Source of the DNA: Bacteroidota bacterium
GTDB taxonomy: Bacteria > Bacteroidota > Bacteroidia > Bacteroidales > B18-G4
NCBI GenBank assembly: GCA_003648575.1
Contig: QMPN01000004.1
Coordinates: forward strand, 1-31,552
DNA length: 31,552 nt
Reading direction: 5' to 3'
A program made the translations under genes and the position numbers. The notes under the pieces are model-generated. The model saw only the letters and a program-made list of their open reading frames with translations, had not been told where the DNA came from and made no database searches. The number at the start of each line of letters is the position of its first letter. The stretch's first letter is position 1. This document shows positions 1,814 through 8,059 of the stretch, in pieces.

Positions 1814-1821
1814 TATATTTG
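1814..1821 (+). promoter_or_regulatory. Bacteroidota -7 element (TATATTTG) for the histone-fold gene
   Basis: TATATTTG matches the TAnnTTTG consensus exactly and lies 24 bases before the ATG at 1846. No clear -33 TTTG is visible. A start site just after this box would exclude the upstream in-frame TTG at 1819, so the box helps decide the start codon. Confidence 0.5.
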
Positions 1822-1845: not shown

Positions 1846-2043
1846 ATGTCATTAGTCAATAAAACAGCTGTGCGTACACTGGCAAAATCCATGGACATGA
1901 AAATCAGTGCCGATTCAATGGAAGCGGCCGAAGCCAGGCTGAAGGTGATTCTTGAACATGCTGCAAAAAAAGCACAGCAGAAAAGAAGAAAAACCATCCT
2001 GAAAAGGGACTTTATTCATGAAATTGATCTTTTTGATTTGTAG
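1846..2043 (+). CDS. Small histone-fold protein (bacterial histone candidate)
   Basis: This 65-residue basic protein (14 Lys/Arg against 9 Asp/Glu) has the helix-loop-long helix-loop-helix layout of a single histone fold. Helix 1 is about residues 3-15, then loop MKIS, helix 2 about 22-46, then loop and helix 3 from about 53. The second loop carries RKTI at 48-51 followed by D55. This matches the RKTI...D motif of archaeal histones, where Arg and Asp form a conserved pair and the RKT loop touches DNA. Helix 2 seems about four residues shorter than in HMfB-type histones. An in-frame TTG at 1819 would add nine residues but overlaps the promoter box, so ATG 1846 is chosen. It would be expected to dimerise and bind DNA; this is inferred. 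The alternative is a histone-fold protein with no role in chromatin. Confidence 0.75.
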   Translation: MSLVNKTAVRTLAKSMDMKISADSMEAAEARLKVILEHAAKKAQQKRRKTILKRDFIHEIDLFDL

Positions 2044-2111: not shown

Positions 2112-2522
2112 ATGAAAATTGTACGTATTATATCTATCATGGTCCTTGCTGTTGTGGCAGGCCTTCTTATTGTTTCCTGCGGCTCGGCTGAGGATAAACT
2201 GATCGGTACCTGGACGACTGAGAGCGTCTCTACCCGCGTGGATTCAAGCAATGCCAATCTGCAGAGTATCGACCATACCATTGCCTCTACAAAAACCACC
2301 AGATTTATCCTGAATGAAGACCACAGCATGTCCCTTAGTATTGATGGATACACCACTGATGCCTTCTGGACCTATAACTCAGATAACGACAGGATAAGCT
2401 TCCGCCTCGAAGCTGATGCTATGGACGATGCCATTGAACTGGGGAAAATGGATGGCGACAAGATCAAGTACGTAAGCAGTGTTAAACATGGTACTATCAC
2501 GGTTTTTTACATAAAAGAATGA
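2112..2522 (+). CDS. Small lipoprotein, lipocalin-like
   Basis: The first 22 residues are a lipoprotein signal peptide (MKIVRIIS then a hydrophobic run) ending in lipobox LIVSC with the acylated Cys at 23. The mature part begins GSAEDKLIGTW, the opening typical of small Bacteroidota lipocalin-like lipoproteins in which a GTW motif starts a beta-barrel. It is followed by alternating strands such as TRFILNEDHSMSLSIDG and FWTYNSDNDRISF. The mature length of about 114 residues suits one small barrel. The gene lies 68 bases after the histone-fold gene with a run of eight Ts between, so it may or may not be co-transcribed. The ligand and function are unknown. Confidence 0.7.
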   Translation: MKIVRIISIMVLAVVAGLLIVSCGSAEDKLIGTWTTESVSTRVDSSNANLQSIDHTIASTKTTRFILNEDHSMSLSIDGYTTDAFWTYNSDNDRISFRLEADAMDDAIELGKMDGDKIKYVSSVKHGTITVFYIKE

Positions 2523-2657: not shown

Positions 2658-3680
2658 CTATTTTTCGAAGGAAATTGTATAACAGATGGCTTCCATCTGC
2701 CTGATGAAATTCCTCTTCAGGTCGCCCGGATTATATACATATGCATCAACTGTGATCACCCTTTCCAGTTGCGGATCGACGAAGGTAAAGCTGATAAATG
2801 GCCCACCCATGAAGTCGTTTTGTACCATCCAGAGGCCCCTGGTTTCTACGGCAAAGCCGGTAACAAAATTATCTATGCGCTTAAAAACAGGCGCAATGAA
2901 ATCTTCTGAAATAACCATATATGAACCGGTGCTGGGCCCTGCAATAAATTTGGATGTAAGGGAGTCCCTGAGGATCAGGATCTCATTCCCTGCAAAGGCG
3001 CTGGTATCTACATAGGGTGCTTCGTGGATGATGATGCCAAGCTCTACATCCTGCTTTACCTTATGCATGCTCTGTCGTAGCCATATAAAGGTTTCATCCT
3101 CTTGCCCGACCACAAATCCACCGGGGATCTGCATGGTGAAGCCAAATTTCTTTTCAATAATGTTTCTCAGCTTAACACTGCGTGCCATCTTGAACTGCTC
3201 GTTGGTGCGCTCAATCTCTAATGCATTATAGGCTTCGAGGAATGCCGTTTTATGTTCATCGAAAGCCTGCCTGAATGAGGCTGTATCAGGTGCAGTGATC
3301 TTAATCACACGCTGTGGCCTGGTCCAGTGATTGTGCCGTGTTTCAACCAGTGCTTCCGTAAAATTTTTATCAATATCAATAATCAGGATATTGTGTTGTG
3401 ACATAAACACCTTATTGAAATCTTTCTCGGCCACATTGAAAAGGTGAAACATGGGCTCAGGTTGGGGCAGCCCGGAAAGGGGTTCCTCGAAAAATTTCCT
3501 GACGGTGAAGCCAATGCGTCTTTCCCATTGGGTCTTGGTGTTGGTCACTACCAATATCTCGTTGGTCTTTCCTGTCGAACGATCATGTCTAACTTCTGCA
3601 TTGCATGAAAGGATGACCATGGCAGATAATCCGAGAAGGATCATCCAGAGGCTGCGAAATCTGTTCTCAAATAAATGCAT
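2658..3680 (-). CDS. DUF4837 family lipoprotein
   Basis: This is a predicted lipoprotein of 340 residues. A charged N-terminus (MHLFENRFRSLW) leads into a hydrophobic segment and lipobox VILSC with Cys at 26. The region after it (NEILVVTNTKTQW, then LPQPEPMFHLFNV and HNILIIDID) matches the pattern of DUF4837, a Bacteroidota family of unknown function. It starts 25 bases after the stop of the MltD-like gene on the same strand, so the two are probably one transcript. That hints at a cell-envelope or peptidoglycan role, but no activity can be assigned. An in-frame internal Met at 13 would shorten the n-region but keep the signal peptide. Confidence 0.75.
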   Translation of the reverse strand: MHLFENRFRSLWMILLGLSAMVILSCNAEVRHDRSTGKTNEILVVTNTKTQWERRIGFTVRKFFEEPLSGLPQPEPMFHLFNVAEKDFNKVFMSQHNILIIDIDKNFTEALVETRHNHWTRPQRVIKITAPDTASFRQAFDEHKTAFLEAYNALEIERTNEQFKMARSVKLRNIIEKKFGFTMQIPGGFVVGQEDETFIWLRQSMHKVKQDVELGIIIHEAPYVDTSAFAGNEILILRDSLTSKFIAGPSTGSYMVISEDFIAPVFKRIDNFVTGFAVETRGLWMVQNDFMGGPFISFTFVDPQLERVITVDAYVYNPGDLKRNFIRQMEAICYTISFEK

Positions 3681-6043: not shown

Positions 6044-8059
6044 ATGAAAAAGATCAACCTCCTTGTATTTATCGGAATTGTCATGTTATCAGCCTCAGTG
6101 AGGGGACAGGACATCCCTGTCTGGAAAAAGATGCATTACCTCAGCGAAGAGGAAATGAAGCTTCCCAATAATAACCTGAAGAATTTTGTTCCTACTGATC
6201 CGCCGGCACACCCGGTGCGTATGGTGGCTGAGTATGAGCAGATGCAAAGTGTACTGGTAAGGTACCCCTTTGGTATACCAACATCTCTGATCATTGAAAT
6301 GTCGCAGGATTGTGGGGTGACTACCCTTGTTGCAAATTCATCCCAGCAAAACCTGGTTACCAGCATTTATCAGAGCGGGGGCGCCAATATGGATAATATT
6401 GATTTTATCATTGCCCCGACCGACTCATGGTGGACCCGCGATTACGGCCCATGGTTCGTGATCGATGGCAATGGGGAATTCGGAGTGTGTGACTTTCCTT
6501 ACAACAGGCCCAGGCCCAATGATGACGAAGTTCCTGTTGAGGTAGCAGCCCATCTGGGCATAAACCTTTTCGGAATGTCGCTGGAGCAGACGGGAGGAAA
6601 TTGGATGTGTACCGGGGATGCACAGGCATCTTCTACCGACCTCGTGTGGGAAGAAAACCCCGGCCTCAACCATCAGGATATTCAGGATATGGTTGACGAC
6701 TACCTTGGCGTGGAACAATATCATGTGCTGCCAGATCCACTGGGTGATTATATCAAGCATGTCGATTGCTGGGGTAAATTCCTTGGAGTGAACAAGGTCC
6801 TGATCGGGCAGGTCCTGGAAAATGATCCCAGGTATGATGATTTTGAATATGTTGCAGATTATTTTGCGAACACCCTTAGTGATTGGGGTATGCCATATGA
6901 AGTTTTCAGGGTTTATACACCCGGCTATGCCCCGAATACACCATATACAAACTCCCTGATCTTGAATAAGAAAGTATTTGTTCCTGTTACCGGGAGCACT
7001 TACGATGATGATGCCCTTGCTGTTTATGAAGCAGCCATGCCGGGTTATGAGATCCATGGCATCTTGTATGGTGAATGGTATAATACCGATGCCCTCCATT
7101 GCCGTACGAAAGGGATTGCAGATATCGGAATGCTGCATATCGACCACTTTCCATTGCATGGAAATATACAGTTACAGGATGAATACAATATAACCGCAAC
7201 CATAACAAATTATAGTGGCATGCCGCTTTATCCTGACTCCCTGCAGGTATTTTATCAGGTCAACGGCGGAGCCTTTGAATCGATTGTTATGGCACAATCG
7301 CTTGGCAACCAGTATTCGGCCAGCATCCCTTATATGGAAGAAGGAACTCTGGTGGGTTATTATATCCATGCAGCGGATGAATCCGGTCGCAGTACCAACC
7401 ACCCGCTGATCGGTGCACCCGATCCGCATGAGTTCACTGTAGTGCAAATGCTTCAGGGTCTGATCGTGATGCCCGATACCTTACTGTATACAACAATAGA
7501 TCAATGCATTGAAGGGCAGGAGGTAAAAATCTATCCCGACGGGGTAGAAGAGGTAACTGTCGACTTCATCAACCAGATGGAAACAGATATTTTCTACTGG
7601 TGGTCGGAACCCGAGATCACTTTCCCATATACTATTCCTTCGGGCGATTCCCTGGTATTGACAGTATACATTGGTATTCCTGTTGATCAAAGCACATATC
7701 TCGTACAGGACACCATGTTTATCGAATGTGGGGGAGGCGATGAACAGGTCTTGATCATGGTAGATGAAGATATTATTTCCAGCCTGCAAGAACCCGAAGA
7801 GAGCTTTAATATCTCGGGCATATATCCCAATCCTTTCGATCGTGTCACAAATATTAATTTGAGCATTCAGCAAGATCAACACATCAGGATCGATGTACTG
7901 GATATCAATGGGAAACTGGTATCAACTATTGCCGATATGCCGTTTGCTGCGGGCGATCATCAGGTGCAATGGGATGGCAGCCAGTACCCTGCCGGCATAT
8001 ATTATGTGACTGTAAAGGGTGATCAGCTTATCGGGACTGCCAAGCTTATTAAAAGGTAG
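6044..8059 (+). CDS. Secreted peptidylarginine deiminase (PPAD-like) with T9SS sorting domain
   Basis: The family hydrolyses guanidino groups; the Porphyromonas enzyme (PPAD) converts peptidyl-arginine to citrulline. Residues 1-21 are a signal peptide. The deiminase domain spans about 55-360 and shows the full active-site set: D127 (DSWWTRDYG), H239 and D241 (HVDCWGKF), N303 (YTNSLILN) and nucleophile C353 (ALHCRTKG). By family knowledge these correspond to PPAD D130, H236, D238, N297 and C351. R155 and R157 (YNRPRPND) sit where PPAD R152 and R154 hold the substrate's C-terminal carboxylate. Beta-sandwich regions follow, and residues 594-671 are a T9SS sorting domain (IYPNPF...AGIYYVTV...KLIKR). 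Cytosolic agmatine deiminases lack a signal peptide and sorting domain, which argues for the protein-modifying type. The specificity is inferred, not shown. Confidence 0.9.
   Translation: MKKINLLVFIGIVMLSASVRGQDIPVWKKMHYLSEEEMKLPNNNLKNFVPTDPPAHPVRMVAEYEQMQSVLVRYPFGIPTSLIIEMSQDCGVTTLVANSSQQNLVTSIYQSGGANMDNIDFIIAPTDSWWTRDYGPWFVIDGNGEFGVCDFPYNRPRPNDDEVPVEVAAHLGINLFGMSLEQTGGNWMCTGDAQASSTDLVWEENPGLNHQDIQDMVDDYLGVEQYHVLPDPLGDYIKHVDCWGKFLGVNKVLIGQVLENDPRYDDFEYVADYFANTLSDWGMPYEVFRVYTPGYAPNTPYTNSLILNKKVFVPVTGSTYDDDALAVYEAAMPGYEIHGILYGEWYNTDALHCRTKGIADIGMLHIDHFPLHGNIQLQDEYNITATITNYSGMPLYPDSLQVFYQVNGGAFESIVMAQSLGNQYSASIPYMEEGTLVGYYIHAADESGRSTNHPLIGAPDPHEFTVVQMLQGLIVMPDTLLYTTIDQCIEGQEVKIYPDGVEEVTVDFINQMETDIFYWWSEPEITFPYTIPSGDSLVLTVYIGIPVDQSTYLVQDTMFIECGGGDEQVLIMVDEDIISSLQEPEESFNISGIYPNPFDRVTNINLSIQQDQHIRIDVLDINGKLVSTIADMPFAAGDHQVQWDGSQYPAGIYYVTVKGDQLIGTAKLIKR

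Follow-up and report, generated by a model that had tools for sequence, protein, structure and literature searches.

A conserved, predicted α3-truncated histone with a near-invariant C-terminal tail in a small group of uncultured Bacteroidota

Histones are increasingly recognised as genuine chromatin proteins of bacteria. The described systems closest to the one reported here have a truncated third helix (α3) and solved structures, namely HTkC of the archaeon Thermococcus kodakarensis (PDB 9F2C) and HLp of the bacterium Leptospira perolatii (PDB 9QT0), both of the face-to-face (FtF) kind, and the dimeric HBb (Bd0055) of Bdellovibrio bacteriovorus (PDB 8CMP, 8FVX and 9EZZ). As set out in the main text of PMC11390915, α3 comprises 3-4 residues in this class and α2 is 4-5 residues shorter than in nucleosomal histones; the roles given below to the RKT motif and to the Arg-Asp (RD) clamp are taken from the same source. 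Here, a gene encoding a 65-residue protein with a predicted histone fold of this α3-truncated class is described, which lies at positions 1846..2043 of the forward (+) strand of a stretch of 31,552 nucleotides from a Bacteroidota bacterium (contig QMPN01000004.1, assembly GCA_003648575.1), hereafter the window. Family searches, profile matches to solved histones and the predicted fold identify it as a real, conserved bacterial histone, known so far from a small group of uncultured Bacteroidota and set apart by a near-invariant, docking-like tail.

Literature searches for histones in Bacteroidetes or Bacteroidota returned no paper on this topic by title, and no word beginning with 'Bacteroid' was found in the main texts of PMC10627809, PMC11390915, PMC12701072 and PMC13260811, whose species tables sit in supplements. 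An alignment in PMC12701072 names 'Hymenobacter marinus (ATH09486)'. Hymenobacter is a genus of the Bacteroidota. We suspect a slip for Halobacteriovorax marinus.

Protein family and predicted fold

The open reading frame (ORF) at 1846-2043 (+) consists of 65 codons and a stop. Its length, the motif residues R48, T50 and D55 (as well as K49) and the net positive charge, all put forward in an earlier note on this DNA, were borne out by the translation, with K+R-D-E amounting to +5 overall and +8 over residues 1-56. A total of 41 homologues were found by a single-sequence search of protein databases, 52 with a 38-row profile and 54 with a more diverse profile of 12 rows; the last set was taken as the family (P0001-P0054), its worst E-value being 2.4e-15 for a fragment. 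The edge of the family was sharp, as the next match appeared only at an E-value of 1.9e-3, and of the 11 proteins below this gap most were longer, one example being an Elusimicrobia protein that bears the name NFYB/HAP3 family (E-value of 0.07). The label 'histone H3/H4' had been assigned by the Joint Genome Institute (JGI) to 8 of the 54 members, so the resemblance had already been caught by automatic annotation. Organism names accompanied five of the 54 proteins, all of them metagenome-assembled genomes of Bacteroidetes, Bacteroidota or Bacteroidales, and the assignment of the window to the phylum rests on these named relatives, on locus L001 and on the common gene order described below.

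Between the window gene and three syntenic copies, the nonsynonymous divergence (dN) was 0.09-0.20, while the synonymous divergence (dS) was 1.4, 1.6 and saturated. Judged from these sequence comparisons, the histone gene is under purifying selection and the ORF is no chance frame. Its G+C content was mildly low (39.9% vs. 45.7% in the window). As side observations, two divergent members (P0051 and P0052) had N-terminal extensions with several lysines before the fold, their start codons being uncertain, which are perhaps comparable to the N-terminal tails reported in other bacterial histones. Moreover, four proteins of about 130 residues (P0055, P0057, P0058 and P0060) began with what looks like a signal peptide, had a histone-like RKTILKRD segment after it, and may be exported histone-fold proteins.

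Solved α3 histones were the top-ranked PDB matches of the family profile, with E-values of 5.3e-10 for HTkC, 7.7e-6 for HLp and 1.2e-4 for HBb, followed by histone H4 (1.4e-3). AlphaFold2 predicted three helices for the window protein, in the α1-L1-α2-L2-α3 arrangement of the histone fold with a long central α2: α1 at residues 3-15 (1852..1890, +), which holds the invariant K6 and R10, conserved in at least 90% of sequences; α2 at residues 22-45 (1909..1980, +); and α3 at residues 53-55. In the divergent member P0054, α2 spanned residues 21-44 and α3 residues 52-55, so that both models had an α2 of 24 residues and an α3 of 3-4. These predicted lengths match the published definition of α3 histones, and the nucleosomal HMfB type was rejected because of them. 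Furthermore, the P0054 model agreed with HLp, HBb and HTkC at root-mean-square deviations (rmsd) of 1.1-1.5 Å and template modelling (TM) scores of 0.73-0.85. Foldseek searches of the PDB with two family members gave top rows that were histone-fold entries by title, with HLp heading both lists, and HBb, HLp and HTkC were tied in a VIA-align structure search. The window protein missed the Pfam gathering cut-offs of both PF00125 (15.3 vs. 26.4 bits) and PF00808, the archaeal histone model (12.6 vs. 21.4 bits), which reflects the sensitivity of these models rather than the fold. Overall, the protein is assigned, on its models and profiles, to the α3-truncated class of histone folds that contains archaeal HTkC and bacterial HLp and HBb.

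The histone fold put forward in the earlier note thus held up, since the three-helix fold was predicted (for monomers) and histones were detected by profiles, and neither of the outcomes named there as counting against it (a structure lacking that fold, or no detectable similarity to histone families) occurred. The label 'archaeal-type' proved too loose, as the protein fits HTkC, HLp and HBb rather than HMfB. The archaeal-histone hidden Markov model (HMM) suggested there as a check stayed below its cut-off, while the family profile did match solved histones. The remark that helix 2 is about one turn shorter than in HMfB agrees with the predicted α2 and with the α3 definition in the main text of PMC11390915.

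DNA binding and oligomeric state

The stretch R48-K49-T50-x4-D55 (1987..2010, +), assigned to the L2 loop as the putative DNA-contact motif and RD clamp, runs into the short α3. Residues R48, K49, T50, L52, R54 and D55 were invariant in the 12-row alignment (A2), RKTxxxxD was kept throughout it, and K49 appeared in all 55 parsed members. A histone fold by itself is no proof of DNA binding, and the protein could instead be a subunit that pairs with another protein without contacting DNA, like the TAF or CENP folds, an idea favoured by the Pfam TAF model, which reached E-values <1 in 25 of 38 members. However, the TAF and Histone models scored about alike (25 and 24 members, respectively), the protein has a basic core, and RKT shows no variation in A2. 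In addition, each genome carrying the gene had one family match, so there is no partner from the same family, other histone folds in the carriers being unsearched except for PF00808 in the starting genome G001 (none found). Such a subunit role is considered very unlikely.

The explanation that we regard as probable is that of a chromosomal, minimal α3-truncated histone that forms a homodimer and bends DNA beside HU, with an added docking tail. It draws on the family, the predicted fold, the motif, the selection, the synteny and the HU-family genes of relatives, all of which were observed, and from it we infer dimerisation, DNA binding, bending and tail docking. The gene holds its position in related genomes, and its product is most likely a homodimer that would bind DNA without much sequence preference through its L1-L2 loops, by means of R48, K49 and T50 ordered by the R48-D55 clamp, while basic residues of α1 may add to the binding. 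By analogy with HBb, the bound DNA would be bent and compacted. Matches to the HU family (PF00216) were found in all ten relatives tested, so the histone is probably an accessory nucleoid protein, working beside HU and not in its place. The acidic-hydrophobic tail that follows the truncated α3 would be an added docking segment, making contact either with a partner protein or with the histone dimer itself.

The ten residues following D55 favour dimers. The alternative is an HLp-like FtF tetramer with about 60 bp of DNA wrapped around it, and this is suggested by the fact that the best sequence matches, HTkC and HLp, are both FtF, as well as by the Foldseek ranking of HLp and the tie in VIA-align. 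The FtF dyad residues of HLp are R49 and N53 (according to the main text of PMC12701072), the Arg and Asn standing at HMM positions 48 and 52. The corresponding sites here were K42 and K46; among the 55 parsed members, position 42 was K in 47, R in 6, G in 1 and A in 1, and position 46 was K in 47, D in 3, L in 2 and E, R and H in 1 each, with no N. This replacement speaks against the tetramer, although the test is weak, because the second site is occupied by Glu in HTkC, whose FtF nature is proven. Moreover, the 10-residue C-terminal extension sits where FtF chains end. The FtF Arg/Asn pair is thus lacking here as in the bacterial dimers, yet HBb is not the nearest relative by sequence. On balance, a wrapping tetramer is judged unlikely and the homodimer is tentatively preferred.

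The C-terminal tail

The most distinctive feature of the family is a conserved C-terminal [DN]-L-F tail, absent from the account of the earlier note. In the window protein it reads H58-E59-I60-D61-L62-F63-D64-L65 (2017..2040, +) and is a candidate docking motif. Tail counts were made on 55 parsed sequences out of 57 entries, P0040 being without the region and L003 being identical to P0045. The pattern [EQK]-x-[DN]-L-F was found in 54 of these 55. By position, H58 appeared in 52; position 59 was E in 48, Q in 4 and K in 3; position 60 was L in 28, I in 16, P in 8, K in 2 and R in 1; D61 was present in 53 and replaced by N in 2; and L62 and F63 occurred in 55 and 54, respectively. The conservation of the tail was about equal to that of the DNA-contact motif, and it was also kept in the 46%-identical copy of genome G047. 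The related pattern [QEK]x[DN][LM]F was found once in the 35,156 residues of 86 other proteins of at least 150 residues, taken from the window and ten loci, and in none of the 86 within the last 12 residues; these control proteins are not independent, because orthologues from related loci were included. The near-invariant tail of this tight family suggests that bacterial histones can bear conserved appendages at their C-termini, and it offers a simple and testable docking hypothesis.

One way of accounting for the tail is structural, with L62-F63 folding back on the dimer and replacing the hydrophobic contacts lost with the truncated α3. In an ungapped comparison, L62-F63 coincide with the hydrophobic end of the nucleosomal α3, which we take to be M66-F67 in HMfB, and AlphaFold2 placed a short helix at residues 60-63 of the window protein. 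On the other hand, 8 of 55 members have Pro at position 60, which would break a continuous α3, and the tail was of low confidence in both models, with a predicted local distance difference test (pLDDT) score of 50 for residues 61-65 of the window protein and of 61 for residues 61-64 of P0054, where it was coil. This structural role, which stays under consideration because contacts with the second chain of a dimer are beyond what models of monomers can reveal, is tentatively held as a possibility.

A bolder reading is that the tail is a sliding-clamp-binding motif. Tethered to the DnaN clamp by it, the histone would act where DNA is being replicated, at the forks, or where it is being repaired. 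The general clamp-binding motif is QL[S/D]LF or QxxLF, according to PMC12309361 and PMC9690074, and it is resembled by the tail pattern of 54 of the 55 members. The polymerase DinB, found in 7 of 8 relatives searched but not in the eighth, G001, had, 36-39 residues before its C-terminus, one of QLDMF, QLNMF, QLDLF or QLDIF and then ED, which is close to ELDLFD; one of these (QLDIF of L032) was missed by the motif pattern and read by eye. Furthermore, Gln stood at position 1 of the motif in four divergent histones, position 1 is variable in DnaE3 polymerases (xxxLF), as reported in PMC12309361, and the tail-like pattern is rare in the control proteins. However, the strict QxxLF or QL[S/D]LF pentapeptide was not found in the window protein (E59) and 51 of the 55 members lacked Gln1, with positions 3-5 kept in 54 of 55; position 1 was Glu in 48 and Lys in 3, even though the mutations that weaken binding most fall at positions 1, 4 and 5, according to PMC12309361. 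By sequence, the missing Gln1 lowers the claim of the tail to be a clamp binder, not its resemblance to one. Clamp binding by the DinB motif of this clade is itself assumed, and no clamp-like motif was seen in DNA polymerase III delta (HolA) at six loci (L040 gave another ORF), a negative of little weight, since delta may use a different motif for clamp binding. A clamp-binding tail is hence regarded as doubtful. Its fuller version, in which the [EQK]x[DN]LF tail docks the minimal histone on the sliding clamp and the chromatin protein is laid behind the replication fork, is less likely still; if true, it would be a bacterial counterpart of replication-coupled histone deposition.

Locus, distribution and comparison with known histones

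A putative promoter box (TATATTTG, at 1814..1821, +) of the TAnnTTTG type lies 32 nt ahead of the ATG; in the three syntenic copies, TATCTTTG stands at -30 or -31. We take TAnnTTTG to be a promoter box of the Bacteroidota type. It appeared at -30 to -32 in 4/4 syntenic copies, compared with a chance expectation in the window of 0.027 per 60 nt, and independent transcription of the histone gene is likely from this conservation. The promoter box claimed in the earlier note is thus present and conserved. It is not special to this gene, as boxes within 100 nt upstream were found for 7 of the 24 listed window genes, that is, the histone gene and 6 of the 23 others.

Regarding distribution, with genome completeness unstated for all counts, a pattern scan of 84,980 species genomes returned one locus, a scan of low sensitivity because other carriers turned up later by profile. 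With the profile, the gene was found in 4 of 393 genomes of the order of G001 and 3 of 9 of its family, in 1 of 395 genomes sampled from the phylum (G001 itself) and, within the family of G047, in one genome of three. PF00808 matched none of these 395 phylum genomes, not even the carrier G001, so surveys using this model alone would miss the family. In G047, the divergent histone was located elsewhere, near a small BrnT/BrnA-like toxin-antitoxin pair of two genes identified by reading (L021:6873-7350 and 7540-7743), a setting that hints at horizontal movement of that copy.

The gene order histone-lipoprotein-DUF4837-lytic transglycosylase-TatA-like-deiminase was common to the window, L001, L019 and L020, the names other than DUF4837 being assigned by reading translations. 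Contamination is unlikely, given the same gene block in the window and three other genomes. The adjoining gene (2112..2522, +) encodes a 136-aa lipoprotein-like protein, which was 65-66% identical in L001, L019 and L020 and 24-27% identical in four loci of relatives without the histone (L022-L025). The convergent DUF4837 gene (2658..3680, -; PF16125, E-value of 8e-83) follows in the conserved block, and the two genes were adjacent in L022-L025 as well. In three of these four loci, the genes beyond the lipoprotein read as a TetR-like regulator and efflux genes, while in L022 the contig stops about 970 bp past the lipoprotein. Upstream of the lipoprotein gene, carriers and non-carriers thus have different DNA, and more than one gene may have been involved when the histone was gained or lost. 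Two further genomes were uninformative on the site, G394 having no DUF4837 match and the contig of G103 ending inside DUF4837. As the neighbours give no DNA-related clue and are present without the histone in four relatives, no function was inferred from the locus. Separately, the intergenic stretch where the lipoprotein and DUF4837 genes converge holds a perfect 17-nt inverted repeat (CCCCTCTTGATCTCCCC) at 2528-2544 and 2607-2623, its arms 62 nt apart. A 12-nt segment of this repeat turned up nowhere else in the window and in none of 41 fetched loci, so the repeat may be a palindromic element that is mobile or specific to the strain.

A viral or mobile origin was rejected, as phage and viral searches yielded no relative of the window protein: none was found in 50,697 phage records at E-values up to 1, and none of 78 pattern matches in IMG/VR was confirmed. 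Such absence in the phage, viral, genome and homologue scans is not proven, because these scans use short words or exact patterns. BFVD gave nothing below an E-value of 0.11, its top three rows being unnamed and several named rows further down being histones of large viruses. One weak match of the histone was found with PADLOC (Csx23, E-value of 0.009 over part of the protein), and 3 of 4 members scanned matched PHROGs of unknown function at 0.015-0.14; both are taken as presumable chance matches of a short helical protein. No match for the histone was found in NCBIfam, nor any Rfam match in the window.

Among the known histones, the nucleosomal archaeal HMfB and HMfA differ in helix lengths, their α2 being 4-5 residues longer and their α3 having about 10 residues (main text of PMC11390915). 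HTkC is the best profile match and shares the short α2, the truncated α3 and the RKT motif. In contrast to the present family, which has 10 residues after D55, its 59-residue chain ends no more than about two residues from the aligned RD region, and it crystallises as a torus tetramer, as described in the main text of PMC11390915. HLp is alike in its fold (rmsd of 1.1 Å to the P0054 model) and RD clamp, but it forms a tetramer wrapping about 60 bp, its chain ends one residue past the clamp Asp, and its host is reported to lack HU (main text of PMC12701072), whereas relatives of the window have HU-family genes. Finally, HBb has a lower profile score than HTkC and HLp and, by chain length, extends about six residues past the clamp Asp, too short for the tail seen here; it shares with the present histone the fold, RKTxxxxD and the lack of the FtF Arg/Asn pair, and is expressed beside HU (main text of PMC11390915), HU-family genes being present in relatives of the window as well.
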